Below are positions 7,201-57,223 of a DNA stretch of 62,018 bases, in pieces (position 1 is the first letter of the stretch; each line of letters begins with the position of its first letter). This DNA is from Anaerolineae bacterium. Lineage in GTDB: Bacteria > Chloroflexota > Anaerolineae > Aggregatilineales > Phototrophicaceae. The stretch lies in contig JALHNB010000043.1 of NCBI GenBank assembly GCA_022843745.1, forward strand, positions 1-62,018, in the 5' to 3' direction. Both the position numbers and the translations under genes were made by a program. The notes under the pieces are model-generated. The model searched no databases. It was not told the DNA's origin and saw nothing but the letters and a program-made list of their open reading frames with translations.

Positions 7201-7353
7201 AATCTCATCCGCCCACACCGACCCCGGCTCAAGCTGCTGCAGGTCGAACCAGACGTTGACACCTGCTTTTTGCAGTGCGACGACAGCAGACTCAGCGAAA
7301 TAGAGTTCCTGGCGTGAGTAGCTGAAAAAATAGAGTGGGTTGGCGGCGGACAT
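4288..7353 (-). CDS. Multi-pass membrane TIR-domain protein
   Basis: The TIR domain covers residues 1-130 (PLYFFSYSRQELYFAES) and keeps the Glu of WVALEWL at position 78, the place of the catalytic Glu in NAD-cleaving TIRs. Two membrane segments lie at about 165-250. A weaker TIR-like segment follows (YHVVAAPEDKRIVDQI to FQFVDYRRQQRP), then five more membrane segments. The C-terminal third looks extracytoplasmic and holds two similar domains starting ITLDVPAYWYP and FEVPAIW, reminiscent of PsbP-like folds. The start at 7353 has AGGAG 6 nt upstream; an in-frame ATG at 7368 lacks this. A dispersed repeat is translated in frame inside the second TIR-like segment. The likely role is a membrane sensor with a cytosolic TIR output; this is inferred. 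Confidence 0.85.
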   Translation of the reverse strand: MSAANPLYFFSYSRQELYFAESAVVALQKAGVNVWFDLQQLEPGSVWADEIQRGLTDCDGMIVLASRASFNSPWVALEWLDALEKNKPVYVILFEAVTFDPIPASEKTNNAPIPLDKLKNEAVAILDLRRNFQQNITRLAEIIKKEERVFDVLPTPNRWRIPTVMPLGVAFVAFALVVLTGTMLWISVVGFSIYWPMMLGGLAITAWLGDRTLAFLRRRSFREPRALLVVTLIASPFISLWLTPIFALGAVLVNFSPDVERWSPLGQGTDRHRSRMSLPRRGLIQRPTLSGKTYHVVAAPEDKRIVDQIHHEMQRAGHENSDQLSAVSIVNPSPPTPLPQGARGANDESNSPSLFAERVGGEADSADFTILVLSNYTPDDMLQHYAESSEKIICVAASALDDWARFKPLARFQFVDYRRQQRPRLTAMALDILNIGSDKISTSFSTHQTPQAFEKSILPGRAASAIGFLYIGMYLVVGATIQNLLAGEMARSAMVINLVVNALVTLWLMIRATRREISVTQLFVISVALPVFNLLVSVLLEPALAGLDMRIALGGILVVNTAFYLFVYAVLLRSWLPARQPRLKLSFRRDLDQWRFHALVVLVSGLFAVTFLGNRFVYATTPPSDVTRIVSAENQITLDVPAYWYPAESPDSTNALRRTHDFILGLERVSSPLGQQGLNLLSAILFGSTEALAVTPIDLIEVFSQQIDLGTVLLHDARYVPDAAQGAHSLRFGLWAYPRTFLYADEASVLSGVMAAYTASDNPAQAPLTQTALGDVTRYEQRYFYESPNPIDSTGSPILFEFRFVVFDTPGTEYWLMFSGDSETMENEAAAIDRVIDSARFDVIPTPSVVITLDNLRFEVPAIWQTVTIPDVNDPATWEGADVSDTVDQFIKDAQAFYDAFDVTSETIWGAQVVSLGQGVAIALSRFEDASTLVDMLITIANTSLETEGVELVDDQTVTLGEDDSALRIIQLEISGRGRSWLVALIVENHPYLIQIVGDVNTMNGYADALNAWLRSFDTVE
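6268..6363. repeat. Pyrimidine-rich palindromic repeat inserted in the TIR gene
   Basis: The ends are inverted copies (CCTCACCCCCTACCCTCTCC against GAGAGGGGTTGGGGGTGAGG), about 96 bp overall. In the gene it encodes a stretch containing PSPPTPLPQGARG and FAERVGGEA, a translation well known from intragenic copies of this kind of palindrome. A related copy is intergenic at 18787-18899. Confidence 0.8.
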
Positions 7354-7604
7354 ACGTTTCTCCTGCACACGAATGGGTTTTCATTATGGCGCAGGAGCGA
7401 TGGTGGCGCAAAAGCAAGGGCGTAGAAACGATCCGACCATCCCTCTATTGCACAACGTGCCAGCCCGTTTCATATTCAAATCAGCGCAATATGCAGCCTC
7501 GCGCAAATCTGACTCTTCGCCAACCATTCATAAGTCCAAAAGGCTATATTTTGACGTAATATATGCCAGATCACTTTTTACGAGCGCATTTAGGAGGTTG
7601 AGCC

Positions 7605-16731: not shown

Positions 16732-17865
16732 CTACTCCCCTTTTCGCAGATCAGCTAACAATCGCTGAAAAGCGACCATAAACGAGTCGTGATCTTTCCA
16801 TTGGCTGAAGTCAGCGATAAAGTATTCGCGGATTTCTTCGGCTAAATCCAAACCATCGCTGGCGACCAACTCCCAATTTTGGAGCGCTTCATAATCGACC
16901 AGCGTAATTGGAAACAGAACGCGGCGATTTTCAGACTTCTCACGTTTGAGCGCCCGCTGAATCTCAACGCGCACCCACTTGCTGTTCATACTGGCTTCCG
17001 ACAGGACAATAATAAGCTTGTCGTGCAGGCGGATCGCTTCGTCAATCTGCGTGTAGACCTTCTCGCCGCCCTTCATATCTTCCGGCGCGTACCAGACACG
17101 CAGTTTTGCGGCCTTCATCTGCTGCGCAAGGCGGTCACAGAACGCGGCATCCTGGCTACTGTGGCTGATGAAGCACGAATAATATTCAATCGCCTGCCCA
17201 ACAAGTGACTTGGCGAAAACGATTAAGCTTTCAGGCACACCGCAACCTTCGAGAAATTCGCGTGGGATATTGCCGCCGGAATTATAAAGGGTGTCGATGC
17301 CAATACTGCTAGGGCCACCATGTCGGATCGTTTCTAACCCGCGTGCGGTAGACAAATCAATATTAATAAATTGGGCTGAAGCGCATAATGCGCCTGCAAA
17401 TTCTGTTTCTGTAGCAATAGTTTTGTAAAAAATTGTTCCTGGCAAATTAGCAGCAGCTAATTTGGCGTTGGTTAGGTCAGCCATAGTCAAGTTGACACTA
17501 TTCAGATTCGCACCACTAAAATCGGCACCTCGCGCGAACACGCCCCGCAGGTTGGCACTGGTCAGGTCAGCCAAGTTCAGTTCAGCACCGTTCAGGTTAG
17601 TGCTGTTTAAGTCAGCATTTCGTAGGTCGCTGTGGCTTAATATAGCTCCATTTAGATGAGCATGGCTCAGGTTAGCACCAGCTAAGTTAGCGGCATATAA
17701 ATTAGCGTTACCGAGGTCAGCAAGGTCAAAATCAAAAAGAACCAAATTGGCATCGTGTAAATCGGCATTGAACAAGTCAGGTATTATGTCGTGGTTTTGA
17801 CTACGCCATTTATTCCATTTATCGACACCTTTGCGCAAGATTGCGAGGTGTTCTTCGTTCGCCAT
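16732..17865 (-). CDS. Pentapeptide-repeat protein with C-terminal TIR domain
   Basis: The 376-aa product has a short helical head, then a pentapeptide-repeat region at about 32-175 (units such as ANLVLFDFDL, ANLAGANLSH, ADLTSANLRG) that should form a right-handed quadrilateral beta-helix. A C-terminal TIR domain spans about 228-365 (YYSCFISHSSQDAAFCDRL, WYAPEDMKGGEK) with Glu301 in WVRVEIQRAL as candidate catalytic residue. Soluble, no membrane segment. The helix may act as a scaffold or a DNA-mimic-like sensor for the TIR; this is inference. Start 17865 has AGGGA 7 nt upstream; frames from 17871 and 17901 also exist. Confidence 0.88.
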   Translation of the reverse strand: MANEEHLAILRKGVDKWNKWRSQNHDIIPDLFNADLHDANLVLFDFDLADLGNANLYAANLAGANLSHAHLNGAILSHSDLRNADLNSTNLNGAELNLADLTSANLRGVFARGADFSGANLNSVNLTMADLTNAKLAAANLPGTIFYKTIATETEFAGALCASAQFINIDLSTARGLETIRHGGPSSIGIDTLYNSGGNIPREFLEGCGVPESLIVFAKSLVGQAIEYYSCFISHSSQDAAFCDRLAQQMKAAKLRVWYAPEDMKGGEKVYTQIDEAIRLHDKLIIVLSEASMNSKWVRVEIQRALKREKSENRRVLFPITLVDYEALQNWELVASDGLDLAEEIREYFIADFSQWKDHDSFMVAFQRLLADLRKGE

Positions 17866-18090
17866 ATGCATCCCTGATTTTGTGAGGCTTTCATATTTCA
17901 ATCATACAAGGAGATGGGCGAACACGGTAGCAGTTCCGCCAAGCATTAAAATGCCTAGCTACCAAAAATCAAGCGCACTGAAGGCGTTCAAAACAGCGTT
18001 ACAACGTATTTGAAGGTTTGAATTAACGTAGCTGGTGGTTTTAACCTTCAGCGGCAAACCCACTAACATTATCGCCGCAGAACACAAAAA

Positions 18091-23095: not shown

Positions 23096-25438
23096 CTAAC
23101 GCCTTCGCTGCGTCGCACGCCATTTTTCTACAGCCTGATGCGCCTCTGGAGTCCTGAGGTCGTCTAGCGCACGAGCCGCACTCAGACAGACATCCCAGTT
23201 TGTATCGTTCAACGCCGCAGCCAGAGCTTCGACAGCGCGAGCATCATCAATTAACCCGACAGCATCAATAGCGCGACGGCGAATATCCGCGTTAGGATCA
23301 GACATCATGTCCATCAGTGATTCAAGAGCGAGGGCGGACTTTATCTGCCCCAGGATTTCGATAGCCTGTTGGCGTAGAGATAGGTTAGGACTGTTCAATA
23401 CTCCCACTACTGTACCGACAGCAGCCTTGCCAAAATTCCGCACCAGACGTGCCGCGATTTGCCGAACATATACATCAGAATCACCCAGTGCATTAACCAC
23501 GGCTTGGATAGCGCGATTATCATCAAATTGACCCAACGCGCTGACACTCTGGCGGCGAACATCGCCATTACTATCGGATAATGCAGCCACCAGAAGATCA
23601 ATTGCCCGAATATCGCCAATCCTGCCCAAGGCGTTGGCAGCATGTGATCGAGCATACGGGCTTGCATCACTCATAGCGTTCATCAACGGTTCGACGGTGG
23701 GTTGACCGATCATCACCAGTGCATCAGCGACTCGGCTGCGAACCTGCTGGTCGGGGTCGCGCAGCAGTTCCATAAGAGGTACTACTACGCGGGCATCCCC
23801 TACACGCCCCAGCGCGTCGGCAGCATGGCGGCGACTAGCTTTGTACGGTGAATTCAAAGCCTTCACAAGCAAATGATGCGCCAGGGTATCTCGCAGCAAC
23901 AAGTGAATAAAGCGGTAGGTGTCATCTTCATTCCGCGCCAGCAGATTAAGACGCACCATCATTTCGCTGAAATTTCCGTTAAAATCGTCAGGAACGGCGC
24001 GTTTAAAATCCGCACTCATCAGTACATTTTCGCGCGGTGTGTATAATTTACCCTGATTATCGCGATAAAAATCGCCTGTCGCATTTTCCATCGCCAACCT
24101 CGCCAGAATCGCCTTCACTTCCCCCAGCGTGAAGGGCAGGTCAGCGCCCACCTTTGTACGCTCATGTTGATAGCGCTGGTCAATATAGCGCATAAAAATT
24201 TTTTCACGCAGCTCATGGGCATTGTTCAACTCGATAAGCTGCTGACGCTCACTTTCTGGCAAATCCTGATACGCAAAAGCAAACAAGCTCATCAGCAGCG
24301 GTGTGCGTGTCACTTGGCGGAGTTCTTCGTCGCTTTCCAGCAGCGCCAGTAATTCCGGCTGCGCTCTCAAATAATCACGCATCTGGTTATCATCCAGAGA
24401 TCGCAGCGTGATCGCGCCATTAAGTGTAGCTTTGTGGCTGATTTCGCTGTATTCCTGTGTGCGGCTGGTGAGCAGAATATAATTGTTCCTGGGTAGCATT
24501 TGCAAAAATTGAAGACGTGGGTCTGTTTGCTCATCCCCCTGCCCTAATTCGTCCAACCCATCCAACAGCAGCAGCACCCGCCCTGCTTCCATTTCACGCC
24601 GAACTTCATGCACATTCAGACCATGCGCTTCAGCGATCCATTCATCCAGTGGTCTCCCATCCCACATTGGCACGAGGTTAAACAACGGCAGGGGCAGCGT
24701 TGGGTCATCCAACCGTGCAGCATAAGCGTCACGCGCGTAGGCCATGAGCGTAACTGTTTTACCAGCACCTGGTTCTCCTAACAGCAAAGCCCGCTGCCCA
24801 TACACCTCAAACCCCTCGCGAAAAGTCGCAAATTTTCGTCTCTCTTGTCTTTCCTCACTGAGTTCGACACCCGACAGTGCCAGTTCAAACACGCTGCGTT
24901 TATGTTCCGGCGGCCTGACCATACTCGGCGCGTCTCCTACCTTTAGATCAATCGGTGCGATAATACGCTGGCGCAGCCCTTCAGCGATAAACTTCAGAGC
25001 AGATGTCAGATACGACCTAAAAGGGTCTTGTGGCGCGTCGATCTGTCGATTTTCATACACATCGCCGTCAATGATCGCCATTAGGCGTTCGAAAGCAGCT
25101 TGTGGGTCGGCAAAGTACTTGACCCATTCATTATTGATAATGGAAATATGCGGTGTGACATCAGCCTGGCAAAGATACGGAATCACCGGCTTTTTCAGTG
25201 CCAGGGCGTATTGAATCTCCCGCCGGACGAAACTGTTTTTGCGCTTGGTATCCGGCGTGATGCACACAACAATATGCGATGAATTCTCGATAGCTTCCTC
25301 AATGTCACCCGTGAAATCCTGATCGGGGTGGAGGTCGCGCACGTCACGCCAGGTCAATTTTTGATGCGCTTGTAACCGCTTTTCGAGGTCAGTCACAAAC
25401 GAAATGCCGTCATTGCGTGAATAACTGAGAAAAATCAT
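23096..25438 (-). CDS. TIR-NACHT-HEAT repeat STAND protein
   Basis: The 780-aa protein has a TIR domain at 1-130 (MIFLSYSRNDGISFV; candidate catalytic Glu74 in VRREIQYAL), a NACHT ATPase with P-loop LLGEPGAGKT near 219-228 and Walker B VLLLLDGLDELG near 285-295, and a C-terminal array of HEAT/PBS-lyase-like repeats from about 530 (units such as ADALGRVGDARVVVPLMELL). In known STAND immune proteins the repeats sense a target, the NTPase oligomerises and the TIR then consumes NAD. That role is expected here but unproven. The gene starts 6 nt after the stop of the NDP-kinase-like gene and has no clear ribosome binding site of its own, so translation is likely coupled. Confidence 0.92.
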   Translation of the reverse strand: MIFLSYSRNDGISFVTDLEKRLQAHQKLTWRDVRDLHPDQDFTGDIEEAIENSSHIVVCITPDTKRKNSFVRREIQYALALKKPVIPYLCQADVTPHISIINNEWVKYFADPQAAFERLMAIIDGDVYENRQIDAPQDPFRSYLTSALKFIAEGLRQRIIAPIDLKVGDAPSMVRPPEHKRSVFELALSGVELSEERQERRKFATFREGFEVYGQRALLLGEPGAGKTVTLMAYARDAYAARLDDPTLPLPLFNLVPMWDGRPLDEWIAEAHGLNVHEVRREMEAGRVLLLLDGLDELGQGDEQTDPRLQFLQMLPRNNYILLTSRTQEYSEISHKATLNGAITLRSLDDNQMRDYLRAQPELLALLESDEELRQVTRTPLLMSLFAFAYQDLPESERQQLIELNNAHELREKIFMRYIDQRYQHERTKVGADLPFTLGEVKAILARLAMENATGDFYRDNQGKLYTPRENVLMSADFKRAVPDDFNGNFSEMMVRLNLLARNEDDTYRFIHLLLRDTLAHHLLVKALNSPYKASRRHAADALGRVGDARVVVPLMELLRDPDQQVRSRVADALVMIGQPTVEPLMNAMSDASPYARSHAANALGRIGDIRAIDLLVAALSDSNGDVRRQSVSALGQFDDNRAIQAVVNALGDSDVYVRQIAARLVRNFGKAAVGTVVGVLNSPNLSLRQQAIEILGQIKSALALESLMDMMSDPNADIRRRAIDAVGLIDDARAVEALAAALNDTNWDVCLSAARALDDLRTPEAHQAVEKWRATQRRR

Positions 25439-25444
25439 AGGCGT

Positions 25445-26317
25445 TTATTTCACCGATAGTACATTCCACTGGTCACGTGTGATTGTGCCACACTGAATAA
25501 TAAAATGCTCCCATTTCGTAACAGGCATTTTCTTCATCACCTCCGTGATCGCGACCACATCCCCGCGCAAAAAAGCGTCGATCATTGGCGCGACTTTGGG
25601 CGAACGCTGCGCTGCTTCCCGCAAAATCTGCGTGAGGATTTGATTCGTCTCTTTCGCGTTTCCCGACGGCGGCAGTTGAATAACGATTGTTTCACGCTCC
25701 CCTGCCAGCAGCCGATTCACGACATCGCACACCACCGCAATGCCGGAATGCGCGACATAACTCGTCGGCGCGGGGATCGGCTCGAACAGCGGCAATGGTG
25801 TCCCTTCGAAATCGAGCGACAAATGAATCGACTTTAATTCGCGCTCCGCCTCCGCCAGATCGTCGCTGACGTGCAGCAGATTGCACACGCCGTTATCACA
25901 CCAGAAGCGCCCACGAATCGACTCCGGCGATGCTTGCGCGGGCTGGGTGCGGCCTTTCAGGTTGAGTAGAGTCGGGATCACGGCGTTTTCTCCCTGCCAG
26001 ATCGTCAGCAGGCACGGGCCGGACAGGAATAATTTCATGACCAGATGCCCATATTTCAGGTCTGCAACCGGGATTTGCTCAAATTTTCGCTCGTATTCTT
26101 CCGGGTCTTGCTCGATGACTGGCTCGTTATCGGAGTTGTAAAAGCGCGAGATGGTGTTCACATCATGATTAATCCACTGGCGATAAACAGCCTGAAAGCC
26201 TGTGGCATCGTGAATGGCATGGTCGAGGTTGCCCCAAAGTCGACTCTGCGTGCAGTCCGGCGAATAAACCGTAAATCCAGCCTGCCCTTTTTCAAACAGT
26301 TCCTGTAAAACCGCCAT
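25445..26317 (-). CDS. NDP-kinase-like domain protein, operon partner of TIR-NACHT-HEAT
   Basis: The 290-aa protein has residues 13-166 that follow nucleoside diphosphate kinase. It matches the family at SGPCLLTIWQGENAV (family SGPVVAMVWEG), SPESIRG (PGTIRG) and NLLHVSDD (NxxHGSDS). By hand alignment it keeps Thr94, Arg105, Asn115, the phospho-His118, Ser120, Asp121 and Glu129 of human NDPK-A (here Thr124, Arg135, Asn146, His149, Ser151, Asp152, Glu160). It has lost Lys12 (YSPDC in place of IKPDG) and Arg88, and has one extra residue before the His. About 115 C-terminal residues are unassigned. Ordinary NDPK is about 140-150 aa. It is the first gene of a two-gene operon, so a nucleotide-handling or sensing role for the TIR-NACHT protein is inferred. 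Confidence 0.78.
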   Translation of the reverse strand: MAVLQELFEKGQAGFTVYSPDCTQSRLWGNLDHAIHDATGFQAVYRQWINHDVNTISRFYNSDNEPVIEQDPEEYERKFEQIPVADLKYGHLVMKLFLSGPCLLTIWQGENAVIPTLLNLKGRTQPAQASPESIRGRFWCDNGVCNLLHVSDDLAEAERELKSIHLSLDFEGTPLPLFEPIPAPTSYVAHSGIAVVCDVVNRLLAGERETIVIQLPPSGNAKETNQILTQILREAAQRSPKVAPMIDAFLRGDVVAITEVMKKMPVTKWEHFIIQCGTITRDQWNVLSVK

Positions 26318-26527
26318 TGTTTCGAATCCTCACTGCTCTTTAGCTCCCCTCTCCAACCCATTGGACGCGAAGCGGGCTGGGGGGTGAGGTTAATTTGAAA
26401 CCATCATATGACGCTCCACCATTTTGGGCAAAAAATGAGCAGGTTTTGAACTGTTCAGGGTGTGCCTATCGGGGTTTAATAGTATCAGTGAGCGCGAGTT
26501 CACTAATCATCCAATCCTCTGAAGCGG

Positions 26528-26597: not shown

Positions 26598-27707
26598 TCA
26601 CGCCGGGATGGTCACATAAACGCTCGTTCCTTGTCCAACTTCACTCTCAAGCTGCACCGTCCCACCGTGCAGCGTGGCCGCTTGCTGGACAATCGCCAGC
26701 CCAAGCCCTGTCCCGCGCAGCTTGCCGACATTCGAAGCCCGCTGGAAGGCCTGGAACAGGCGGGACTGGTCTGCTTGAGGAATGCCAATTCCCTGATCCT
26801 GAATGGTCAGCGTAAACTGCTGGTTCGCGGCTTCCAGCAAGACCCGCACTTCACCGCCGCCTGGGGAATATTTGACCGCGTTCGAAATGAGATTGGCCGC
26901 GATCTGTTGCAGCAATCGTGGATCCGCCATCACAGAATCGTGAAAATGGCTTTCATACACAATCTGGTGTGTGTCACCATCCATGGCTTGAAAATCCTCG
27001 ACAATAGACCGAAAAAATGCCGCCGGTTGCAGACTCTCCGGCTTAAAGTCAAAGCTGTTGGTTTCCAACTGGGAGGTGATGAGCATATCGTCCAGCATTT
27101 GCAGCAGGCGTCGAACCGAGCCGTCAATCCGGTTGAAATGCTCCTGGCGGCGATTTTCGTCCAGGCGATCAGAGTAATCGCGCAGGATATTACTGGACGC
27201 GAGAATGCCCGCCAGCGGGTTACGGAAATCGTGCGAGAACATGGCGACCAGCCGCATTTTGAGCATCCGCTGTTCATGCTCCTGCGTCAATGCTTCCTGC
27301 AATTGGTTGACTTCCTGCTGGCGTTTTTGCTCTATCGTGGCTTTTTTATTCAGACGGGTCTGGATTGCCTGTAGAAGTTCCAGGCGGCTAAACGGTTTGG
27401 TGATGTAATCGTCCGCGCCCAAGTCCATGCCCAGGCGAACGTCTTCATAGACCGCCCTGGCCGTCATAAAGATAAAGGGGATGCTGTCAGTTGCCGAGTG
27501 AGCGCGTAGTTCTATGAGGACCGCATGTCCGTCCAGGCGCGGCATGGTAATGTCACACACGATCAAATCCGGCAGAAATGCTCTGGCCTTTTCAAGCCCT
27601 TCTACCCCATCCGCCGCCTGAATGACCACATAGCCCTCCAAGGTCAGCCATTCCGCCACTTCGCCACGCAAAATCATCTCATCTTCAATGATTAGTATTT
27701 TCGTCAT
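26598..27707 (-). CDS. Response regulator-histidine kinase hybrid
   Basis: The 369-aa soluble protein has an N-terminal receiver domain (about 1-120; acidic EDE at 8-10, phospho-acceptor Asp52, Lys104 in TKPF), a coiled linker (about 120-150), HisKA with His159 (FSHDFRNPLAG) and an HATPase domain (NLISNAVKYSPGG, DQGIGIP, GTGLGLAIV). This receiver-first layout lets another kinase tune this kinase. Its ATG lies 2 nt after the stop of the giant kinase gene, with AAGGAG inside that gene's end, so the two are translated together and the receiver is the likely target of the giant kinase. No DNA-binding output domain is present. Confidence 0.93.
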   Translation of the reverse strand: MTKILIIEDEMILRGEVAEWLTLEGYVVIQAADGVEGLEKARAFLPDLIVCDITMPRLDGHAVLIELRAHSATDSIPFIFMTARAVYEDVRLGMDLGADDYITKPFSRLELLQAIQTRLNKKATIEQKRQQEVNQLQEALTQEHEQRMLKMRLVAMFSHDFRNPLAGILASSNILRDYSDRLDENRRQEHFNRIDGSVRRLLQMLDDMLITSQLETNSFDFKPESLQPAAFFRSIVEDFQAMDGDTHQIVYESHFHDSVMADPRLLQQIAANLISNAVKYSPGGGEVRVLLEAANQQFTLTIQDQGIGIPQADQSRLFQAFQRASNVGKLRGTGLGLAIVQQAATLHGGTVQLESEVGQGTSVYVTIPA

Positions 27708-27709
27708 TT

Positions 27710-30700
27710 TTATGCTCCTTCCTTGCTGCTCAATGGGATCATAACGGTAAAGGTTGTTCCCATCCCGATCTCACTTTCAACCGTAATTGTCCCCCCATGC
27801 AGTTCAATCGCATCCTTTGCAATCACCAGCCCCAGCCCTGTGCCGGAGATCGTGCCAACATTTCCAGCACGGTGGAATGGCTCGAACAAGTGCTTCAGGT
27901 CCGCTTCGGGAATGCCGATACCCTGATCCTGAACCTGGAAAATCAGATTATCTTCTGAATATGCCAGATCAATATTGATCGTCTTGTCCGGCAGCGAATA
28001 CTTAAGCGCGTTCGAAACCAGGTTGTTGATAATCTGGCGCATTAATTTTTTATCCAGCCACACTTCATGCAGCCGGTCATCACAGTGATAATTCAGGCGA
28101 TGATCCATGTCCGGGCGGCTCTCAAATTCATCGAGAACGCTGCGGCAGAGTGAGTCGAGATTCATCTTGACCGGATTAAACTCAACCCGACGCGCCTGCA
28201 TTCGCGCCAGCATCAGCACATCTTCCATGATGTCGTTCAGATGCCCGATCTGATCCTGAATTCTGAGCAACCGCTGCTCAATCTGCTCATCCGGCAGGCG
28301 GTGACGATAGGCTCTCAGTGTTTCCGTCAAGGCAAGGATCGTCGCCAACGGTGTGCGAAACTCGTGCGACGCCATCGACACAAACCGCGTTTTGAGTTCA
28401 TTTAGCTCTTTCTCTTTCTCGAGCGACTGTAACAGCGTTTCCTCTGCCTGCTTCTGCGCGGTAATATCTGTCGTCACCGCAAAGCTGCCGATCAGTTTTC
28501 CGTTTTTGTCGAGCAGCGGCGAGCCGGATATGAGCATATGAACAGGGCTGCCGCTCTTATGCCTTAAAAGAAGCTCGTAGGATGAGCTTTCGGCACGCCG
28601 TCTTCGCTCAATTTGCGACTCTAAAGCAGGCAAATTCGTGGTATCGACATAATCAACGGCGTTGGTCCCTATGACTTCATCGCGGGAATAACCCAAAATC
28701 TCAAGGAAACGGTCATTTATGTACGTGATCCTCTCGTCCAGGTCATAAATCGCCAGACCGCCGCGCATGGTTTCAATCAGCGAACGATACTTTTCTTCGC
28801 TCTCTTTCAGGGCAGCCTCAGACCGTTTGCGTTCAGTAATTTCAGTAGCAATACCTAATACGTGCTTCGAATTTCCATCTGCACTGATAATCGGAACCTT
28901 CGTTGTCTGGAACCACAGCGTCTCATTCCGGTAATTCGTGATGGACTCTTCGATGAAAAGCGGCTCGCCAGACGTAATCACCTGCCGATCAGCTTCCAGA
29001 AAGCTGTCACTCTCCCGCACAGAGGGGTTAAAATCATGATCTGTCTTGCCAATCAGCTCATCTACCGTCGTATCGTACATCCTGGCTACCATTGAATTCG
29101 CCAGAACAAAGCGCGATTCATAATCCTTGACGAAAATCATGCTCGGACTCACGTCAATAACGCTGCGGAGAAATGTGCGCTGTCCTTCCAGTTCAGCGGC
29201 AGCGCGCTTGCGCTCGGTGATGTCCACAATGAAACTCATCACCATCATGCCGTCCGTTGTGTCGATATAACTCAGCTCAATTTCAACCGGGAACTCGCTG
29301 GCATCCTTGCGCTTGGCGAAAAGCTCCAGGCCGATACCCATCTGGCGCACACGCGGTTGTTCCATGTAGGCGATGCGGTTTTGGATATGTCTGTCGCGCA
29401 GGTAATCGGGCATCAGAACCTCGATCATCTTTCCTTCCAGTTCTGTGCGCGTATATCCGAACAGGATTTCCGCCTGAAGATTGACCAGCGAGATTCGTCC
29501 GAGCTGGTCGGTGATAATGGTCGCTACCGGCGCGGCATCCAGCAGCAGCCGGAATTTCGCTTCGCTCTCGCGCAGACTTTCCTCGGCACGTTTGCGATCA
29601 GAAATATCGCGTGATGAGGTGATCAGTCCTTCGATTTCGCCTGTTTCGGAATAAATCGGACTCCCGATCGTCTCCATCCAGATATAGTGTCCTTCTTTAT
29701 GGTGAAATCGGACAATCATATTGATGCTCTGATCCGCCGACGACGTAATGGATTGTATAGCGGATGCCAGATCGTCCGGGTGAATATCCGCAAAAGATGA
29801 TTTCCCAACAAGCTCCTCTGGATCATAACCCAGCACATTCCGGCTGGATGGCGAAACATAGAGGTATTCGCCAGCCGAATTCGAGCGCACGACCACATCG
29901 GTAATGTTCTCCGCCAGCAGGCGATAGCGTCCTTCACTTTCCCGCAAAGCGATCTGGGACTGTTTCTGCACCAACAAGGTACTCAGTGTGAGGGCATAAA
30001 GCGAGAGAATATCGAGTAAGGGCTTGGAAGCGGGGCTATGACGAACCGCGTTATCGGCGGCAATCCACCCCAGATTTTCCGAACCCTTCCATAACGCAGC
30101 AACCGCATTCCATCCCCGGCCAATCGGCTTCAAATCCGCAAACAGTTCCGCCTGCTCCTCATAACTGAAGCGCTCGTCCTGCGCCATCGCCCGACTCAAA
30201 AGTCCTGTCGGTGTACTCGGGTCGAATCTGAGGTGGTGCTCTGCTACCAGTTTCCCCTGCGCGTCTGTGCCATATGTGCCCAGGGCTAAATTCTGGTCGC
30301 TATCGTAGATCAAGAGGCCAAAACGCTCGAACCCAAACCGCTCAAGGCCCATCTCAACCGAGCGCCTATAGAACGTGTCCAGGTCGTCGATCTGGGTCAA
30401 TTCAATGCTGATTTCATTGAGTACCTTCAGATATACCTGAAATTCCCGTTCCTCCTGCATTTTTGTGTTGAGCGCTTCTTCGGCACGTTTGCGCTCAGTA
30501 ATGTCGTAAACAATAGAGAGGAGACAGGATTGGTCATTCAGAATCACTGTTGTAATAGAAGTCAGTGTCGTGCAGAGTTCACCTGTTTTCTTGCGAAATC
30601 TGAGTTCCAACCCGCTCACGGATCCATTTTCGCGGATAGATCGTACCGCTTCCACACGTTGATCGGGGGCATCCCAAACATTCAATTCACTTGCTGTGCG

Positions 30701-33700
30701 CCCAATTATCTCGTCACGGGAATAGCCCAACAGATTCAACAGACTGTCATTGACATCAAGGTAGCGTCCTTCAGCCGCAGTGGTGAGGCCAATGGCAACC
30801 GGGCTGAACCGAAAGACCGAAGCAAAGCGTTCTTCAGACTGGCGCAAAATTTCTTCAGTCCTCTTACGCTCGGTGATGTCGCGGAAAACGCCAATAAATT
30901 CCATGACGTTTCCTGTTGGGTCGCGGACAATGCTGTTTGTTGCTTCAACCCAAACGTAATGACCAGCCTTGTGGCGCACACGCTGCGTGATTGAAAAAGA
31001 TGGCTGCGATGACTTTATCGCTTCCAGAGTGATTGCGTTCGTTTTTTGCACATCTTCCGGATGCACAATATCCAGCCCATTGGGGCCAACCAGTTCTTCC
31101 GGCGTGTAGCTCAGCAGTACGTAACACGACGGCGAAACGAAGGTTCGCGTGCCATCCGGCTTCATTCTGACGATGACATCGGTGACGTTCTCTGCCAGCA
31201 AACGGTAGCGGGCTTCGCTTTCCCGCAGCGACATCTGTGACTGTTTCTGCGCCAACAGCGTGGCAACAGACAGGGCATAAAGCCCGATGATGTCCAGCAG
31301 GGCTTTCGAGGCAGGTTTGTGGCTCAGTAAATTATCGGCGATGAACCAGCCCAGACTCTGTGTTCCATTCCACAAAACGGCAGCAACATTCCAGCCAGAC
31401 CCGGTGGCCTGGAGGTCGGTATAGAGTGTTGTCTCTTCCTCGAAATAGAAGCGCTCTGCTCTCTCGAATGCATGCTGCATAGGCCCGTTTGCATCTGGAA
31501 CAAACCGAACGCCGCGCTCGTCCGAAAGATTTCCCTGCGCGTCTGTGCCATAGGTTCCCAGCGCAGCACCGTCCTTTTCGTCGTAAAGGAACAGCCCCAA
31601 CCGCTCAAACCCAAGCCGCTCAAGCCCCAACTCAACCGTGCGTTTATAGAAAATATTCAGGTCATCAATCTGGGTCAGTTCAATCGTAATTTCATGCAGC
31701 GCCTTCAGGTATTCCTGGAACTCGCGCTCGTCCTCCATGCGCGCGTTGAGTGCTTCCTCGGCATGGATACGAGCGCTGATGTCGCGGATTACCAGGATGA
31801 TTTCCACGAGCTTTCCGGTGGACGGGTCCAGCACAATGTTGCCCGTTGATTCCGTCCACACGATATGACCATCTTTGTGAATGATGCGCGCTGTGAATGT
31901 AAATGTTGATTTCGATGCACTCATCGCCTGCAATGTGCTTGACCGAACGGAGTCAAGATCATCGGGATAAAGAATGTCTCTAGCGAGACTGCCCACCAAT
32001 TCTTCCGGCGTATAGCCTGTCTGGGCAAAGCAGGACGGCGTAATGAAGGTTCGAATGCCGTTTATATCCAATTTCTCGATCACATCGGTGATATTCTCGG
32101 CCAGAAGACGGTAGCGCAGCTCGCTTTCGCGCAGGGCATTTTCGGCTTGCTTGCGCCCCGTAATATCGTGGTTCACCGCCAGAAAGCCAATATGCTTATC
32201 ATTCTCATCTCTGAGCGCCACGACTGAGCCGAGAATATGGATAGGCGTGCCATCTTTATGGTGTTGGATCGATTCACTTTCGGCAGAACCATATTCTGTT
32301 AGTTGGCGAAGCGCCTGCGCCCTGGCATCCTCGGACACAAACTCGATGTGCAGCAGTTCGTTGCTAATTTGCCCTATCGCTTCTTCCGCGCTCCAGCCGT
32401 AAATCCGTTCCGCTGCTTTGTTCCAGCTCTGGATGTGAAGCTCAAGATCCGTCGAGATCACCGCATCGCTGACGCTCTCCTGAATGCTGGCATAATAACG
32501 CAGTTTCTGTTCCTGCATTTTCCGTTCGGTAATGTCATGGTTGACGGCAACCATGCCAAATGGCTGCCCTTTGTTGTCTTTGAATAACACCACTGAACTT
32601 AGAATATAGATCGCTGTGCCATCTTTATGATGCTGGATAACCTCGTCTGTCCAGTAACCGTGATCGAGAAATGACTGCCGGACACGTTCAGCGGAGTCGT
32701 TCGACAAAAATTGGCTTCGCAGAATTGTGACAGGTTTGCCGACGATTTCTTCGGCCTTCCAGCCATATATCTTTTCGGCTGCCGGATTCCAACTCTGAAC
32801 GATATAGTCGAGGTCAGTCGCAATCACAGCATCGGTCACGTTTTGCTGGAGGCTGGCATGGAAACGAAGCTGGCGTTCGCGCTCTTTACGTTCGGTGATA
32901 TCGGCAATAAAACTCATCACCAGCAGGCCAGACTGGGTTTTGATTTGGCTTATTTCGATTTCGACCGGAATCAGGGTGCCATCTTTATGATGGCCAAATA
33001 GCTCCAACCCTTCCGGCATACGGCGCACGCGTGGCGCGGCCATATAGTCATCCCAATCGTGAACGTGTTGTTGCCGGACGTTCTCAGGCACAAGCATTTC
33101 GACAGGCTGCCCCACCAGTTCATCGCGGTGATAGCCAAACAAGGCTTCCGCCTGGATGTTGACCAGCGTGATAATCCCGGCCTGGTCGGTAATAATCGTT
33201 GACATCGGTGCGGCATCGAGCAGTGACCGGAATTTTGCTTCGCTCTCGCCGAGTTCCGCCGTGCGTTCCACGATGCGCTCTTCGAGCGTCGCGTAGGCTT
33301 CCAGCAGCGCTTCCTCCGCCAGTTTCCGTTCGGTGATATTGATGTGCGCGACCACCACCCGGCGCGGGGGTGGCTCGTCAAAAGGCGTGACCCGCAGGCC
33401 AAACCAGCGCTTTTCCGATGGGCTGGGACAGGGGTATTCCAGAAAAAAATGATCCTGCCGACCCGAAATCACGGCACGAATCCCGGCGGCAGTCTGAGGA
33501 GCTTCTGGAGAATCAACGGCGCTGTCACAGACCGTCAGGTAATTGAGGTTTTCATAATAGCTCGGCGCGTCATTCTCATCGGCAAAACGTTCCCATCCGG
33601 CGTTGACGCTGATAATTACTCCATTGCCATCGAGAACGGCGGCACTGGCGGGGAAAGCATCGAAGGTGGTTTGCAGAAACTGGCGCATTTCCTGGTCGGC

Positions 33701-36292
33701 ACGTCGGTGCCTTTCCTGTTCGGCTTCCCGTTCCCGCTGGTCCGTGACATCACGCCCGACCCCCTGGTATTCAATCACATTGCCGTTGTCGTCCAACAGT
33801 GCGCGATCCGTCCACTGAATCCAGCGTACTGCCCCACCGACCATCATCGATTGATGTTCTGAGATTGCAACCGGATTTGTGGCATTTAACGAACGGACAT
33901 GCTGCCTCGCCCCTTCACGTTGCTCGACAGGAATTCGCTCCAGTAAACTTAAATTTGACATCTCGTGTGGAAAGATACCCAGTCTTTCCTGGTAGGCGCG
34001 GTTCATAAACGTCAGTTTAAAATCCGTGTCGTAGCGGCAGATCAGTTCGGTCTGGTCTTCAACCACGCTGCGATAGCGTATTTCGGTTTTCCTGAGATTT
34101 TCAACCTGTGTCTTTAATGATTCTGAGAGATACAGTTGATGGATGGCAAGCGCGAGTTGGCTGCCAACCTGGTCCGCAATCTCCCGATACTCAGCCGTGA
34201 AAAAATTAGGGGTATTCGCCAGCAATCCAAGTGCTCCAATGGGCGTATTCTGCTCCATAAGCACAATCTCAAGGCTGGATACCAGCCCTTCCTGCGCAAG
34301 CAGTTTAGCTTGTGGATTCGGGTCTTGCAGTAGACGAATATCATCAATGACACGCATATGGCGCGGATCGAGTCCGTCCATCCCAGTAGCCATAACAGGT
34401 ACGCGGACACCCTGACCTAATACCGTCTCGCCATCCATGTTATTGGCGAAAATAATGCCTTCGTTCGTCGCACGATCCAGAACGGCGACAGTTGCCCGCT
34501 GACATGGAATCAGTCCCCGGAGGTGTCTGAGCGTTGTTTCCACCAATTCATGAATGGACTGTCCCTGGATCAATCCCAGGTCAATCTCGTGCAGCAGTTC
34601 CATGCGCTGTGCATAGCGCTTTAACCGCTGTTCTGCCTGCCTGCGAAAGGTGATGTCACGAATATTACACTGGATAACTTCCTGATCATCGACCCAGTAA
34701 ACATTGCTGACAAATTCGACATTAACCAGTCGCCCATCGCTGGTTGCAAGCGGCAAATCCTCATAACGCACATATTTCTTTTCCAGCAGCTCCGTAAACG
34801 CAGACTGCGATGCCGCGATGTCGCTGAAAGCCCCAATCTCCCACAGTTTCTTGCCCGTAAAAGCTTCTGCTGCATAGCCCAACAATTCAACCAGATACGG
34901 GTTAATATCCACGATCCGGCCTGTACTGGCATCGAGAATCAGGATGCCATCTTTGGCTGATTCAAAGAGGCGGCGGTATTTGATCTCGGAGGCACTTTGC
35001 AATTCTTCTGATCGCTTACGTTCGGTAATATCCAGCGAGAGGATAAAAATACCATCATCTACGGGCTGAATGTTTTGCTCAAACCACGTTCTCGTGCCAT
35101 CCGGAAAGACATACTCATTCTGGATATACTCAATCCTGCGTTCCTGCATACACCGCTGGAGCGCAGCGCCAATCGCTGTGTTTTCGATACCTGGGTAGCA
35201 TTCCATCACCGTGTGGCCGAGAAGTTCGTCCTTTGTGAGGCGGTTATATCGGACAGCCGTGTCGTTGACATACTGAAAGCGCCAGTCGAATCCAATAATC
35301 TCGCAGCTTTCCAGCATATTGTCGAGAATGTGATGATAGCGTTTTTCATGGATCAGTACGGCTGTTTCGGCCTTCTGGCGTTCAATGTCCGTTTGATTGA
35401 GCGAGCGTGCGCTCCACCATACCAGCAGCGTAAATGTGAAGACATTCGACAGGGCAAATAACGCCAGACCAAAGTGGGTATCATAAAGTCCTAGCTCTTG
35501 TCCTCTGAGCCTCACCCAACCGAACAACAGCGGAAGCAGGATTACAGCCGGCAAGAGGCGGCGCATCAGTTTACCGCCGCTTTGTTCAGAGTTAATAAAT
35601 GCAGTTAATCCCTGTTCAGGGCGAGCTGTCAGAATGCCAATCCCGAGAATAAAAAAAAGCAGCCCGGTATGGATTGCCATCGGTGCCCACGAGAAAAAGC
35701 CGCGCAGTACATCGACTTCGTAAAGGTATCCCGCCAGCGTCAGCAGCGCTATCGACATGACGATCAACGTGATCAGATGAATGGTGACATAACGCCGTGA
35801 ATGACTCAGCAGCCAGAAAGCCAGTCCCAGAAGCATGAAACTCACGGTTGTGGCGTGCGACATCCGACCTGGATACAGGAATCCACTGATAACACCCGTG
35901 TCCCTGAAAAACAACTGGTCGATCCCGAAATCCCAGCCGAAAATGTATTCAAGCAGCGTGAGTGAACCAATCAGAAAGATCGCCAGCGCACACACCTGCG
36001 CCAGCCGACGCTGCGTTTGAGAGGCTTGCTCGTCCTGGAGCAGCCATAACGCAGCACCCGCCATTATAAAACACAGCGCGGAGTTGGCTTTCATGGTTGC
36101 CAGATTGGGGAAAACGCTTTTCAGTACGGGGATATCCAGCATCCAGCCCATGAGGACAAGGCAACCCGCGAGGAAAACAAGGGCGGCGATGATTTGTGAT
36201 ATGCGCTTGTTAAAGAGCATACGCTCACGGTCGTGAGGGCTTCGCTCCGCCGTTTCCCCTGCGGAGCGCCGATTATACTTATCTCCTGACAT
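27710..36292 (-). CDS. Giant sensor histidine kinase, 14 PAS and 3 GAF domains
   Basis: The 2860-aa protein starts with about eight membrane segments (residues 35-310, a MASE-like block). I count 14 PAS domains and 3 GAF domains (near 560-710, 1530-1690 and 1955-2110), then HisKA with His2643 (ASHEFRTPLATI) and an HATPase domain. The block PAS-GAF-PAS, with GAF start LHEITIELTQIDDL against LNEISIELTQIDDL, occurs twice, so the gene grew by internal duplication. PAS5 and PAS12 are also close. It likely integrates many small-molecule or redox signals. Start 36292 (MSGDKYNRR) is preferred to a TTG at 36310. It is followed by the hybrid kinase with 2 nt between stop and start. Confidence 0.93.
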   Translation of the reverse strand: MSGDKYNRRSAGETAERSPHDRERMLFNKRISQIIAALVFLAGCLVLMGWMLDIPVLKSVFPNLATMKANSALCFIMAGAALWLLQDEQASQTQRRLAQVCALAIFLIGSLTLLEYIFGWDFGIDQLFFRDTGVISGFLYPGRMSHATTVSFMLLGLAFWLLSHSRRYVTIHLITLIVMSIALLTLAGYLYEVDVLRGFFSWAPMAIHTGLLFFILGIGILTARPEQGLTAFINSEQSGGKLMRRLLPAVILLPLLFGWVRLRGQELGLYDTHFGLALFALSNVFTFTLLVWWSARSLNQTDIERQKAETAVLIHEKRYHHILDNMLESCEIIGFDWRFQYVNDTAVRYNRLTKDELLGHTVMECYPGIENTAIGAALQRCMQERRIEYIQNEYVFPDGTRTWFEQNIQPVDDGIFILSLDITERKRSEELQSASEIKYRRLFESAKDGILILDASTGRIVDINPYLVELLGYAAEAFTGKKLWEIGAFSDIAASQSAFTELLEKKYVRYEDLPLATSDGRLVNVEFVSNVYWVDDQEVIQCNIRDITFRRQAEQRLKRYAQRMELLHEIDLGLIQGQSIHELVETTLRHLRGLIPCQRATVAVLDRATNEGIIFANNMDGETVLGQGVRVPVMATGMDGLDPRHMRVIDDIRLLQDPNPQAKLLAQEGLVSSLEIVLMEQNTPIGALGLLANTPNFFTAEYREIADQVGSQLALAIHQLYLSESLKTQVENLRKTEIRYRSVVEDQTELICRYDTDFKLTFMNRAYQERLGIFPHEMSNLSLLERIPVEQREGARQHVRSLNATNPVAISEHQSMMVGGAVRWIQWTDRALLDDNGNVIEYQGVGRDVTDQREREAEQERHRRADQEMRQFLQTTFDAFPASAAVLDGNGVIISVNAGWERFADENDAPSYYENLNYLTVCDSAVDSPEAPQTAAGIRAVISGRQDHFFLEYPCPSPSEKRWFGLRVTPFDEPPPRRVVVAHINITERKLAEEALLEAYATLEERIVERTAELGESEAKFRSLLDAAPMSTIITDQAGIITLVNIQAEALFGYHRDELVGQPVEMLVPENVRQQHVHDWDDYMAAPRVRRMPEGLELFGHHKDGTLIPVEIEISQIKTQSGLLVMSFIADITERKERERQLRFHASLQQNVTDAVIATDLDYIVQSWNPAAEKIYGWKAEEIVGKPVTILRSQFLSNDSAERVRQSFLDHGYWTDEVIQHHKDGTAIYILSSVVLFKDNKGQPFGMVAVNHDITERKMQEQKLRYYASIQESVSDAVISTDLELHIQSWNKAAERIYGWSAEEAIGQISNELLHIEFVSEDARAQALRQLTEYGSAESESIQHHKDGTPIHILGSVVALRDENDKHIGFLAVNHDITGRKQAENALRESELRYRLLAENITDVIEKLDINGIRTFITPSCFAQTGYTPEELVGSLARDILYPDDLDSVRSSTLQAMSASKSTFTFTARIIHKDGHIVWTESTGNIVLDPSTGKLVEIILVIRDISARIHAEEALNARMEDEREFQEYLKALHEITIELTQIDDLNIFYKRTVELGLERLGFERLGLFLYDEKDGAALGTYGTDAQGNLSDERGVRFVPDANGPMQHAFERAERFYFEEETTLYTDLQATGSGWNVAAVLWNGTQSLGWFIADNLLSHKPASKALLDIIGLYALSVATLLAQKQSQMSLRESEARYRLLAENVTDVIVRMKPDGTRTFVSPSCYVLLSYTPEELVGPNGLDIVHPEDVQKTNAITLEAIKSSQPSFSITQRVRHKAGHYVWVEATNSIVRDPTGNVMEFIGVFRDITERKRTEEILRQSEERFASVFRFSPVAIGLTTAAEGRYLDVNDSLLNLLGYSRDEIIGRTASELNVWDAPDQRVEAVRSIRENGSVSGLELRFRKKTGELCTTLTSITTVILNDQSCLLSIVYDITERKRAEEALNTKMQEEREFQVYLKVLNEISIELTQIDDLDTFYRRSVEMGLERFGFERFGLLIYDSDQNLALGTYGTDAQGKLVAEHHLRFDPSTPTGLLSRAMAQDERFSYEEQAELFADLKPIGRGWNAVAALWKGSENLGWIAADNAVRHSPASKPLLDILSLYALTLSTLLVQKQSQIALRESEGRYRLLAENITDVVVRSNSAGEYLYVSPSSRNVLGYDPEELVGKSSFADIHPDDLASAIQSITSSADQSINMIVRFHHKEGHYIWMETIGSPIYSETGEIEGLITSSRDISDRKRAEESLRESEAKFRLLLDAAPVATIITDQLGRISLVNLQAEILFGYTRTELEGKMIEVLMPDYLRDRHIQNRIAYMEQPRVRQMGIGLELFAKRKDASEFPVEIELSYIDTTDGMMVMSFIVDITERKRAAAELEGQRTFLRSVIDVSPSMIFVKDYESRFVLANSMVARMYDTTVDELIGKTDHDFNPSVRESDSFLEADRQVITSGEPLFIEESITNYRNETLWFQTTKVPIISADGNSKHVLGIATEITERKRSEAALKESEEKYRSLIETMRGGLAIYDLDERITYINDRFLEILGYSRDEVIGTNAVDYVDTTNLPALESQIERRRRAESSSYELLLRHKSGSPVHMLISGSPLLDKNGKLIGSFAVTTDITAQKQAEETLLQSLEKEKELNELKTRFVSMASHEFRTPLATILALTETLRAYRHRLPDEQIEQRLLRIQDQIGHLNDIMEDVLMLARMQARRVEFNPVKMNLDSLCRSVLDEFESRPDMDHRLNYHCDDRLHEVWLDKKLMRQIINNLVSNALKYSLPDKTINIDLAYSEDNLIFQVQDQGIGIPEADLKHLFEPFHRAGNVGTISGTGLGLVIAKDAIELHGGTITVESEIGMGTTFTVMIPLSSKEGA

Positions 36293-36907
36293 TTTCTCAT
36301 ATCCTTGCAAATTCGGTTGTAGCAGGCATGAGTGAAGGCAGCGATGTAGTTACATTATATGTCCGAGTTGGCTTTACGAACAATTAATTAATAACAAATA
36401 AATATATATATTACTCAATCAATAATTAAGCTTATATCGTATGGTTTTCATATTTTGATTTCTAGAAACGGCATTCAGGAATAACTCGGTGCAATAGGTT
36501 TACAACACCTCTATGCTTGTAGCAGCATTGACTTTTCCTTGAAACGCTTCGCTTCTATAGTCGCTGTGACTTTTTTCAGCGCTCTTCTTGCGGTATTAAT
36601 ATTCCAAATCTGTAACGTATATGCACGCCATAGTACATATACGTTACAGAGATATTATTTCAATTGATTATAGCACACATCAGAACACATTGATCTCTCG
36701 TACACAGTCTTATCCATTGTAACTCCTTAAGTATGGGGAGAATCTTATCCTCCTCGCTTCGATGGTAGAGAGGCACTTGAAGACCGTACGATTCCCCTCT
36801 CCATGAGCTTGCGAACTGGGGCGATGCTGGGGGAGGGGTTTTCAATAATACCCTTTTCAACGCGCTCTAAAATCCGTTAATTGACCGGGCGACTCAGGAT
36901 AATGCCC
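36293..36907. other. 615-bp AT-rich gene-free stretch
   Basis: It separates the MFS gene from the giant kinase gene, both on the minus strand, and should hold the kinase promoter. It contains AT-rich sequence near 36385-36440, a strong inverted repeat at 36610-36649 and a degenerate pyrimidine-rich palindrome at about 36795-36845. No convincing coding frame was seen. Confidence 0.65.
36610..36649. promoter_or_regulatory. Perfect 14-bp inverted repeat
   Basis: CTGTAACGTATATG and CATATACGTTACAG are perfect inverted copies around a 12-nt loop. No T-run follows on either strand, so a plain intrinsic terminator is unlikely. A regulator-binding site or an RNA structure in a long 5' leader of the kinase mRNA is possible. 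Confidence 0.5.
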
Positions 36908-57066: not shown

Positions 57067-57165
57067 ATCTCTAACCTCCAACACGTTACGCCTATTATAA
57101 ATGAATTTCGCCTCATTCTGCCCGTTTTCATATCGCCCAATTAGAACAAGAGTCCGTCTCCCCTG

Positions 57166-57193
57166 TTCCACCACGCCCATTTTGCCCTATAAT
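57166..57193 (+). promoter_or_regulatory. Sigma-70-like promoter of the LuxR-STAND gene
   Basis: TTCCAC at 57166-57171 and a perfect TATAAT at 57188-57193 are 16 bp apart, 30 bp before the start at 57224. The -35 box is weak. Confidence 0.5.
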
Positions 57194-57223
57194 AGAGCAA
57201 GCGATAGAGAACAGAATCCCACC

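Follow-up and report, generated by a model that had tools for sequence, protein, structure and literature searches.

An NDPK-like gene of a distinct subfamily lies directly upstream of a TIR-NACHT-HEAT gene in an Anaerolineae bacterium: a pairing found once so far

In contig JALHNB010000043.1 of an Anaerolineae bacterium (assembly GCA_022843745.1; the whole stretch of 62,018 nt analysed here is referred to as the window), a gene for a protein related to nucleoside diphosphate kinase (NDPK) lies directly upstream of a gene for a TIR-NACHT-HEAT protein of the signal transduction ATPases with numerous domains (STAND) class (Table 1). A first-pass annotation of the sequence had described the two as a possible two-gene defence system. 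Both open reading frames (ORFs) were found as it described them, 6 nt apart, and the TAA of the first and the ATG of the second share a frame (TAA ACG CCT ATG), so that a single stop codon divides what would otherwise be one frame. The accompanying statement that the STAND gene has no ribosome binding site of its own was too strong, as a GGTGA motif is present 11 nt 5' of its ATG, within the 3' end of the NDPK-like gene; a GAGG motif is present 10 nt 5' of the NDPK-like ATG. The tight in-phase layout, together with a promoter-like site in front of the first gene, makes a single transcript likely, and the two genes are probably co-transcribed as one mRNA; seven promoter-like sites were counted in the region, against 3.8 ± 1.9 in shuffled sequences. 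Lying side by side, the two genes may well be co-expressed, and a local regulatory role or a bait role is conceivable.

Table 1. Features of the gene pair, with positions in the window
Feature	Position	Strand	Evidence
NDPK-like gene, 290 aa, ATG start, TAA stop	25445..26317	-	ORF; PF00334, E 3.1e-13
TIR-NACHT-HEAT STAND gene, 780 aa	23096..25438	-	ORF; Pfam TIR_2, NACHT, HEAT_2
6-nt spacer between the two genes, frames in phase	25439..25444	-	Sequence
NDPK-fold domain, residues 9-169	25811..26293	-	AlphaFold2 model; VIA-align Z 14.8
His149 codon, phospho-His position (H118)	25871..25873	-	His in 14/14 subfamily and 43/43 housekeeping rows
C-terminal helical domain, residues 190-290, common to the alphaproteobacterial subfamily	25448..25750	-	Alignments; predicted helices
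TIR domain, residues 2-119, putative catalytic Glu74	25082..25435	-	TIR_2, E 9.3e-19; Glu in 23/23 rows
NACHT NTPase, residues 217-358, Walker A and B	24365..24790	-	NACHT, E 9.7e-9
HEAT repeats, approximately residues 515-774, likely sensor region	23117..23896	-	HEAT_2, E 1.6e-46, four stretches, best 582-664
Promoter-like site, 85 nt 5' of the NDPK-like gene, weak consensus match only	26403..26431	-	Consensus scan

The homology of the first gene product to NDPK, and its fold, were upheld both by profile (50 bits against a PF00334 cut-off of 27) and by predicted structure, and its best match by sequence among solved structures in the PDB had an E value of 3e-10. In an AlphaFold2 model built from an 11-row alignment (mean pLDDT 76, pTM 0.74), approximately residues 9-170 aligned with solved NDPKs, with Z up to 14.8 and 2.5 Å over 134 residues (VIA-align), and Foldseek matched the model to NDPKs at E 2e-5. 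Twelve active-site positions were tabulated in the human NDPK numbering that we assume here, in which H118 is taken to correspond to His149. Seven of them are kept in the window protein (Y52, T94, R105, N115, H118, S120 and E129), which agrees with the earlier count of seven including the phospho-His, and the NxxHxSD segment comprises N146, H149, S151 and D152. The reported loss of Lys12 and Arg88 was likewise confirmed: the two residues, which we take to bind phosphate in NDPK and which are K and R in all 43 housekeeping NDPK rows compared, are replaced by Ser and Leu. The H51 and R/K58 positions are altered too, and a Lys stands in place of the I/M/V/L that precedes the Gly of the phosphate turn. 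Set against NDPKs of the NME/Ndk type (PF00334), the protein therefore shares the fold, the phospho-His, Y52, R105, N115, S120 and E129, differs at K12, H51 and R88 and in the new Lys, and adds a one-residue insertion before N115 and a helical C-terminal domain.

This last domain accounts for the extra C-terminal region that had been noticed at the outset. It is predicted to be helical with a mean pLDDT of 81 (blocks of 74-95, except the last block at 59). Folded alone, it gave no clear match in the PDB (top Z 4.2, and none at Foldseek E 0.001), a result that does not show a new fold. A separate, ordinary NDPK is encoded elsewhere in the same genome (contig C33). Among 50,697 phage records searched by tblastn at E 1, six matched the NDPK-like protein, all within residues 15-161; four of these matches are annotated as NDPK and two are unannotated. 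A likeness of residues 129-224 to a 522-aa ORF of a viral contig (L047), which we take from its motifs to be a terminase, was rejected as chance, as its E value is relative to six candidate stretches only and the rhizobial homologues described below do not share it.

The relatives of the NDPK-like protein were found mainly in alphaproteobacteria. A tblastn search of 72,556 plasmid records matched 23, of which nine, from Roseibium, Sinorhizobium, Rhizobium and Neorhizobium, covered at least 80% of the query in one place (25-32% identity, E 2e-22 to 1e-12); several plasmid records annotate these homologues as 'nucleoside-diphosphate kinase'. A pattern scan of 84,980 species, followed by confirmation, yielded 18 loci that are alphaproteobacterial by their titles, with 26-31% identity in the best segment; all 18 came via a single degenerate pattern from a seven-row alignment, so that the scan would overlook any member whose CDN motif differs. 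Searched alone, six peptides taken from the window protein had no match in the same 84,980-species set, and none was found in viral contigs scanned with the subfamily alignment. The window protein aligned end to end with its homologues, the C-terminal domain included, at 27-32% identity. In a tree, 14 proteins (the window protein and 13 relatives) were separated from 43 housekeeping NDPKs by a branch with support of 100/99, with the proviso that the Acinetobacter, Streptomyces and window rows are long and their places inside the subfamily unsure. Y52, R105, N115, H118 and E129 are kept in 14/14 of these rows, S120 in 13/14 and T94 in 11/14; K12 and H51 are lost in 14/14, and R88 in 13/14, Roseibium retaining the Arg. 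The Lys preceding the phosphate-turn Gly is present in all 14 subfamily rows versus none of the 43 housekeeping NDPKs. Taken together, the alignments and the tree place the window protein in a separate NDPK-like subfamily, whose marks are the gained Lys and the helical domain at the C-terminus. As the loss of K12 and R88 and the C-terminal domain are seen across the subfamily, they are traits of the subfamily and are not special to a defence setting.

The genomic setting of the subfamily was compared at 29 loci, comprising 11 of the 23 plasmid records (H1-H8, H10, H12 and H14; H9, H11, H13, H15-H20 and three further records were left out) together with every one of the 18 genome loci; flanks of up to 8 kb per side were included (6 kb in Streptomyces), and contig ends cut some loci short. 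A match to an amino-acid kinase from Mesorhizobium (L086) was present in 28 of the 29 loci, the exception being Streptomyces; the loci are not independent, because eight of the genome loci carry nearly identical Mesorhizobium kinases. In 27 of the 29, the kinase lies just upstream of the NDPK-like match on the same strand, with the match ends no more than 260 nt apart, and in Acinetobacter it lies approximately 4.4 kb away on the opposite strand. The linkage is therefore typical of the subfamily without strictly defining it. The kinase from Inquilinus (L082) showed 54% identity by tblastn. Genes near the kinase encode DegT and class-III aminotransferases, a GMC oxidoreductase, a methyltransferase and, in some loci, a phosphoenolpyruvate mutase. 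The Mesorhizobium kinase itself belongs to the AA_kinase family (E 6.8e-24), and its closest PDB entry is 7qrh. As the sole neighbour kinase scanned, it scored best with MfnE, the kinase model of the methanofuran pathway, among NCBIfam models (E 1.6e-29), yet at 103 bits it remained under the cut-off of 300. This setting suggests that the subfamily acts in small-molecule biosynthesis, where two kinases may act in turn on one metabolite. In some rhizobial islands the gene after the NDPK-like gene (L098 8493-9017, L084 8723-9724 and L053 7806-9092) has no Pfam match and carries a PNDIDIHH segment of nucleotidyltransferase-like appearance to the eye; the NDPK-like protein of Acinetobacter has a similar segment in its C-terminal part.

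The window departs from this setting. Its NDPK-like gene adjoins the TIR-NACHT-HEAT gene and a histidine kinase gene, with no MfnE-like kinase next to it, and an amino-acid kinase search of the genome gave no match at E 0.001, an empty answer that shows nothing by itself, as no control search was run alongside. Compared with the amino-acid-kinase-linked proteins of rhizobial and other alphaproteobacterial islands, the window protein has the same full-length alignment, the same losses of K12, H51 and R88 and the same signature Lys, and it differs in an insertion at residues 73-91, in 18 of 59 otherwise invariant columns, in its STAND-TIR neighbour and in lacking an amino-acid kinase match in its genome. 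It differs from the methanofuran setting of MfnE-type kinases as well, there being no match in its genome to the neighbour kinase.

The STAND gene, by contrast with this unusual subfamily, is an ordinary representative of a kind already known. The TIR-NACHT-HEAT architecture ascribed to its product was fully supported, with all three domains detected by Pfam and the Walker motifs and Glu74 intact. In an alignment of 23 rows (the window protein and 22 relatives), Walker A was present in every row and Walker B in 22, the remaining row (L148) stopping before it; the conserved Glu74 is presumably catalytic, after the TIR NADases. With residues 1-515 as the query, 24 of 101 related genomes, its own included, had a match at 1e-20, and no match to the TIR-NACHT-HEAT protein was found in the plasmid records at the same threshold. 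TIR effectors on bacterial NACHT proteins have already been described (PMC10952713). With bacterial NLR-related TIR-NACHT proteins, the window protein shares the N-terminal TIR, central NACHT and C-terminal repeats, and it differs in that the repeats are of the HEAT type and that an NDPK-like gene lies tightly upstream. It differs from Thoeris (ThsA/ThsB) in that there is no separate TIR protein ThsB with a ThsA effector, the TIR being fused to NACHT-HEAT, and in its neighbours, namely the NDPK-like gene with the histidine kinase gene beyond it and a C11 peptidase gene on the other side. The same genome harbors a paralogue with 49% identity (contig C91), upstream of which there is only a divergent 298-aa gene. 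A probably decayed copy was also observed in this genome (L080 4302-6360, contig C84), in which a truncated TIR, 61% identical to that of the window over 67 residues, is followed by a HEAT-repeat ORF without NACHT.

Whether the pairing recurs was examined from both sides. On the side of the NDPK-like subfamily, the co-occurrence that the first-pass annotation had put forward as a check came out negative, with a TIR-NACHT match in none of the 29 loci, an outcome that the annotation itself had named as refuting its proposal. On the side of the STAND gene, the 21 relatives, the paralogue included, all lack an ORF on the same strand 50 nt or less upstream, and the closest one is 54 nt away. These relatives are from L079 and L130-L149, of which L135 has two such genes and L147 was omitted because its match does not start near residue 1, and in L136 and L149 only about 380 and 510 bases were available upstream. 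When the upstream ORFs of 20 regions, taken from 49 STAND match rows, were compared, none matched the NDPK-like protein at E 1; in both of these comparisons ORFs of at least 70 aa were called longest-first, so that small genes may escape. The proposal of a two-gene defence system thus found no support among either the 29 subfamily loci or the 21 STAND relatives.

Within the phylum, the NDPK-like protein was matched in 33 of the 101 relatives and in 229 of 400 genomes (these two sets overlap, as do the sets of 396 and 154 genomes given below). Apart from the window itself and one short C-terminal match, the matches listed span roughly residues 90-162 and score no more than 35 bits, versus 667 for the window, and they include no second full-length subfamily member in either set. 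The 42 NDPK loci compared in the 101- and 400-genome sets are housekeeping NDPKs; the others were judged by their lower scores. A profile of the C-terminal domain found only the window among 396 genomes of the class, besides a weak match in G714 (E 0.007) that was regarded as noise. At 1e-12, the full profile recovered from 154 genomes of the order only the window and G811, which was rejected as a subfamily member, being a housekeeping NDPK. Long open frames had suggested NDPK fusions in other genomes of the phylum; the four that were checked all proved to be of the housekeeping type. These comparisons indicate that the pairing of an NDPK-like and a STAND-TIR gene is, so far, a singleton and not a conserved system. 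The first-pass claim that no NDPK partner of a STAND-TIR protein has been described holds in the literature searched, in which none was found, although this is a weak negative, as the search covered few subscription papers; the main texts of PMC7159879 and PMC8195603 contain no NDPK terms. Nor did a limited literature search find a description of this NDPK-like subfamily or of an NDPK in biosynthetic clusters.

Two matters that the first-pass annotation had merged are to be told apart, an ordinary STAND-TIR gene and an unusual NDPK-like subfamily, and the reading that we favour, with moderate confidence, keeps them so: an autonomous NAD-cleaving STAND protein, upstream of which a metabolic phosphotransferase gene was acquired, a functional link between the two being possible. 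The HEAT repeats would detect an invader or the effect that it has, the NACHT NTPase would oligomerise and the TIR domain would cleave NAD. The NDPK-like gene would be a stray member of its subfamily, probably acquired horizontally, and would have been added locally to a STAND gene that seems to be solitary in relatives. Since no partner gene adjoins the STAND gene on its upstream side in any relative examined, an NDPK partner is unlikely to be obligate. The NDPK-like protein most likely still passes on phosphate via His149, and the replacement of Lys12 and Arg88, with the gained Lys beside the phosphate-binding turn, points to an acceptor that is not an ordinary NDP. The gene is intact and the catalytic core of the subfamily is kept, so that its product is probably still an active phosphotransferase, one with a different acceptor and gained from elsewhere. 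The suggestion that the protein is an inactive sensor of nucleotides, suited to defence, is weakened, because the same losses (K12 in 14/14 rows, R88 in 13/14), alongside a core kept in 14/14, occur in 13 other rows that come from loci without TIR-NACHT.

Several observations weigh against this reading. Of 59 alignment columns that do not vary among the other 10 rows, the window protein conforms in only 41 (7 of 11 from residue 166 onward), and it carries 19 additional residues at 73-91; with such divergence it need not have the chemistry of its subfamily. The amino-acid kinase was not found in its genome, so that the role of the usual partner is vacant there. The 6-nt in-phase spacing is tighter than in all 21 STAND relatives, as coupled genes would show. 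In addition, in a genome of the same family (G015), a 36-aa stretch 44% identical to the C-terminus of the NDPK-like protein lies directly after a gene for a TrlF-family ATPase (L154 8297-8404, contig C236), with an in-frame TAG; at E 9.1e-5 per genome, approximately 0.05 such matches are expected by chance over about 500 genomes, and the stretch may be either chance or a relic beside another defence gene. Finally, coverage of other phyla was limited to pattern scans and to plasmid, phage and viral-contig records.

The tight tandem, the retained catalytic core and the vacancy left by the usual kinase partner would all suit an accessory enzyme, with which the STAND-TIR response is tuned: the NDPK-like protein would produce or remove a nucleotide that controls the gating of NACHT or TIR, or else add phosphate to the STAND protein or to its product. 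A precedent exists in Clover, a dNTPase-NTase system in which, according to a preprint, an accessory nucleotide enzyme restrains the effector (PMC12265719). However, TIR-NACHT is missing from the 29 subfamily loci, and the 21 STAND relatives manage without an adjacent upstream ORF, which implies that the STAND protein needs none in general, and we consider such tuning unlikely, if worth keeping in mind. The more specific proposal of a defence operon particular to this lineage, whose His-phosphotransferase, with an altered acceptor, was drawn from biosynthesis and makes, removes or senses a nucleotide that licenses the TIR-NACHT-HEAT STAND protein, seems rather unlikely to us.

The NDPK-like gene might instead be the remnant of a metabolic module that serves an unrelated pathway or none, its position before the STAND gene being accidental. 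The biosynthetic setting of the subfamily, the failure to find a further member in the genomes sampled from the class and the order and the change of 18 of the 59 columns invariant in the other 10 rows would fit such an origin; yet the ORF is intact across 290 codons with its catalytic core kept, and the amino-acid kinase, the sole other gene of the module that was looked for in the genome, was not found, and we judge this account to be distinctly doubtful. T4-like phages use the host NDPK, and plant NLRs are known for the integrated-decoy model. By analogy, the NDPK-like protein could be bait that lures phage proteins which target the host's nucleotide enzymes, by binding or inhibition, and be guarded by its STAND neighbour, whose C-terminal repeat region suits the watching of a protein and whose gene is adjacent in an operon-like manner. 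A bait would be expected to resemble the host NDPK, but the window protein falls across a 100/99 branch from housekeeping NDPKs, and its altered active site is common to relatives in biosynthetic islands; this possibility accordingly strikes us as very improbable.

The window offers one natural case of such an NDPK-like protein before an immune gene, and if a functional link between them were demonstrated, the protein would represent a new kind of accessory for STAND proteins. Independently of the window, the subfamily, with its altered phosphate site, gained Lys, extra C-terminal domain and amino-acid kinase partner, is a target for enzymology in rhizobial islands.

Beyond the gene pair, the upstream neighbour is a response-regulator/histidine-kinase gene (26598-27707), 280 nt away, and the downstream neighbour is the C11-peptidase gene. 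The response-regulator/histidine-kinase gene directly follows a gene for a 2866-aa protein (27710-36310, minus strand) that by eye resembles a very long multi-PAS histidine kinase. Elsewhere in the window there are genes for a 389-aa protein in which pentapeptide repeats precede a TIR domain at the C-terminus (16732-17901, minus strand), a 1026-aa protein with an N-terminal TIR_2 and no further Pfam match at 1e-6 (4288-7368, minus strand), and a 907-aa NB-ARC protein with a C-terminal LuxR-type helix-turn-helix (57101-59824, plus strand).

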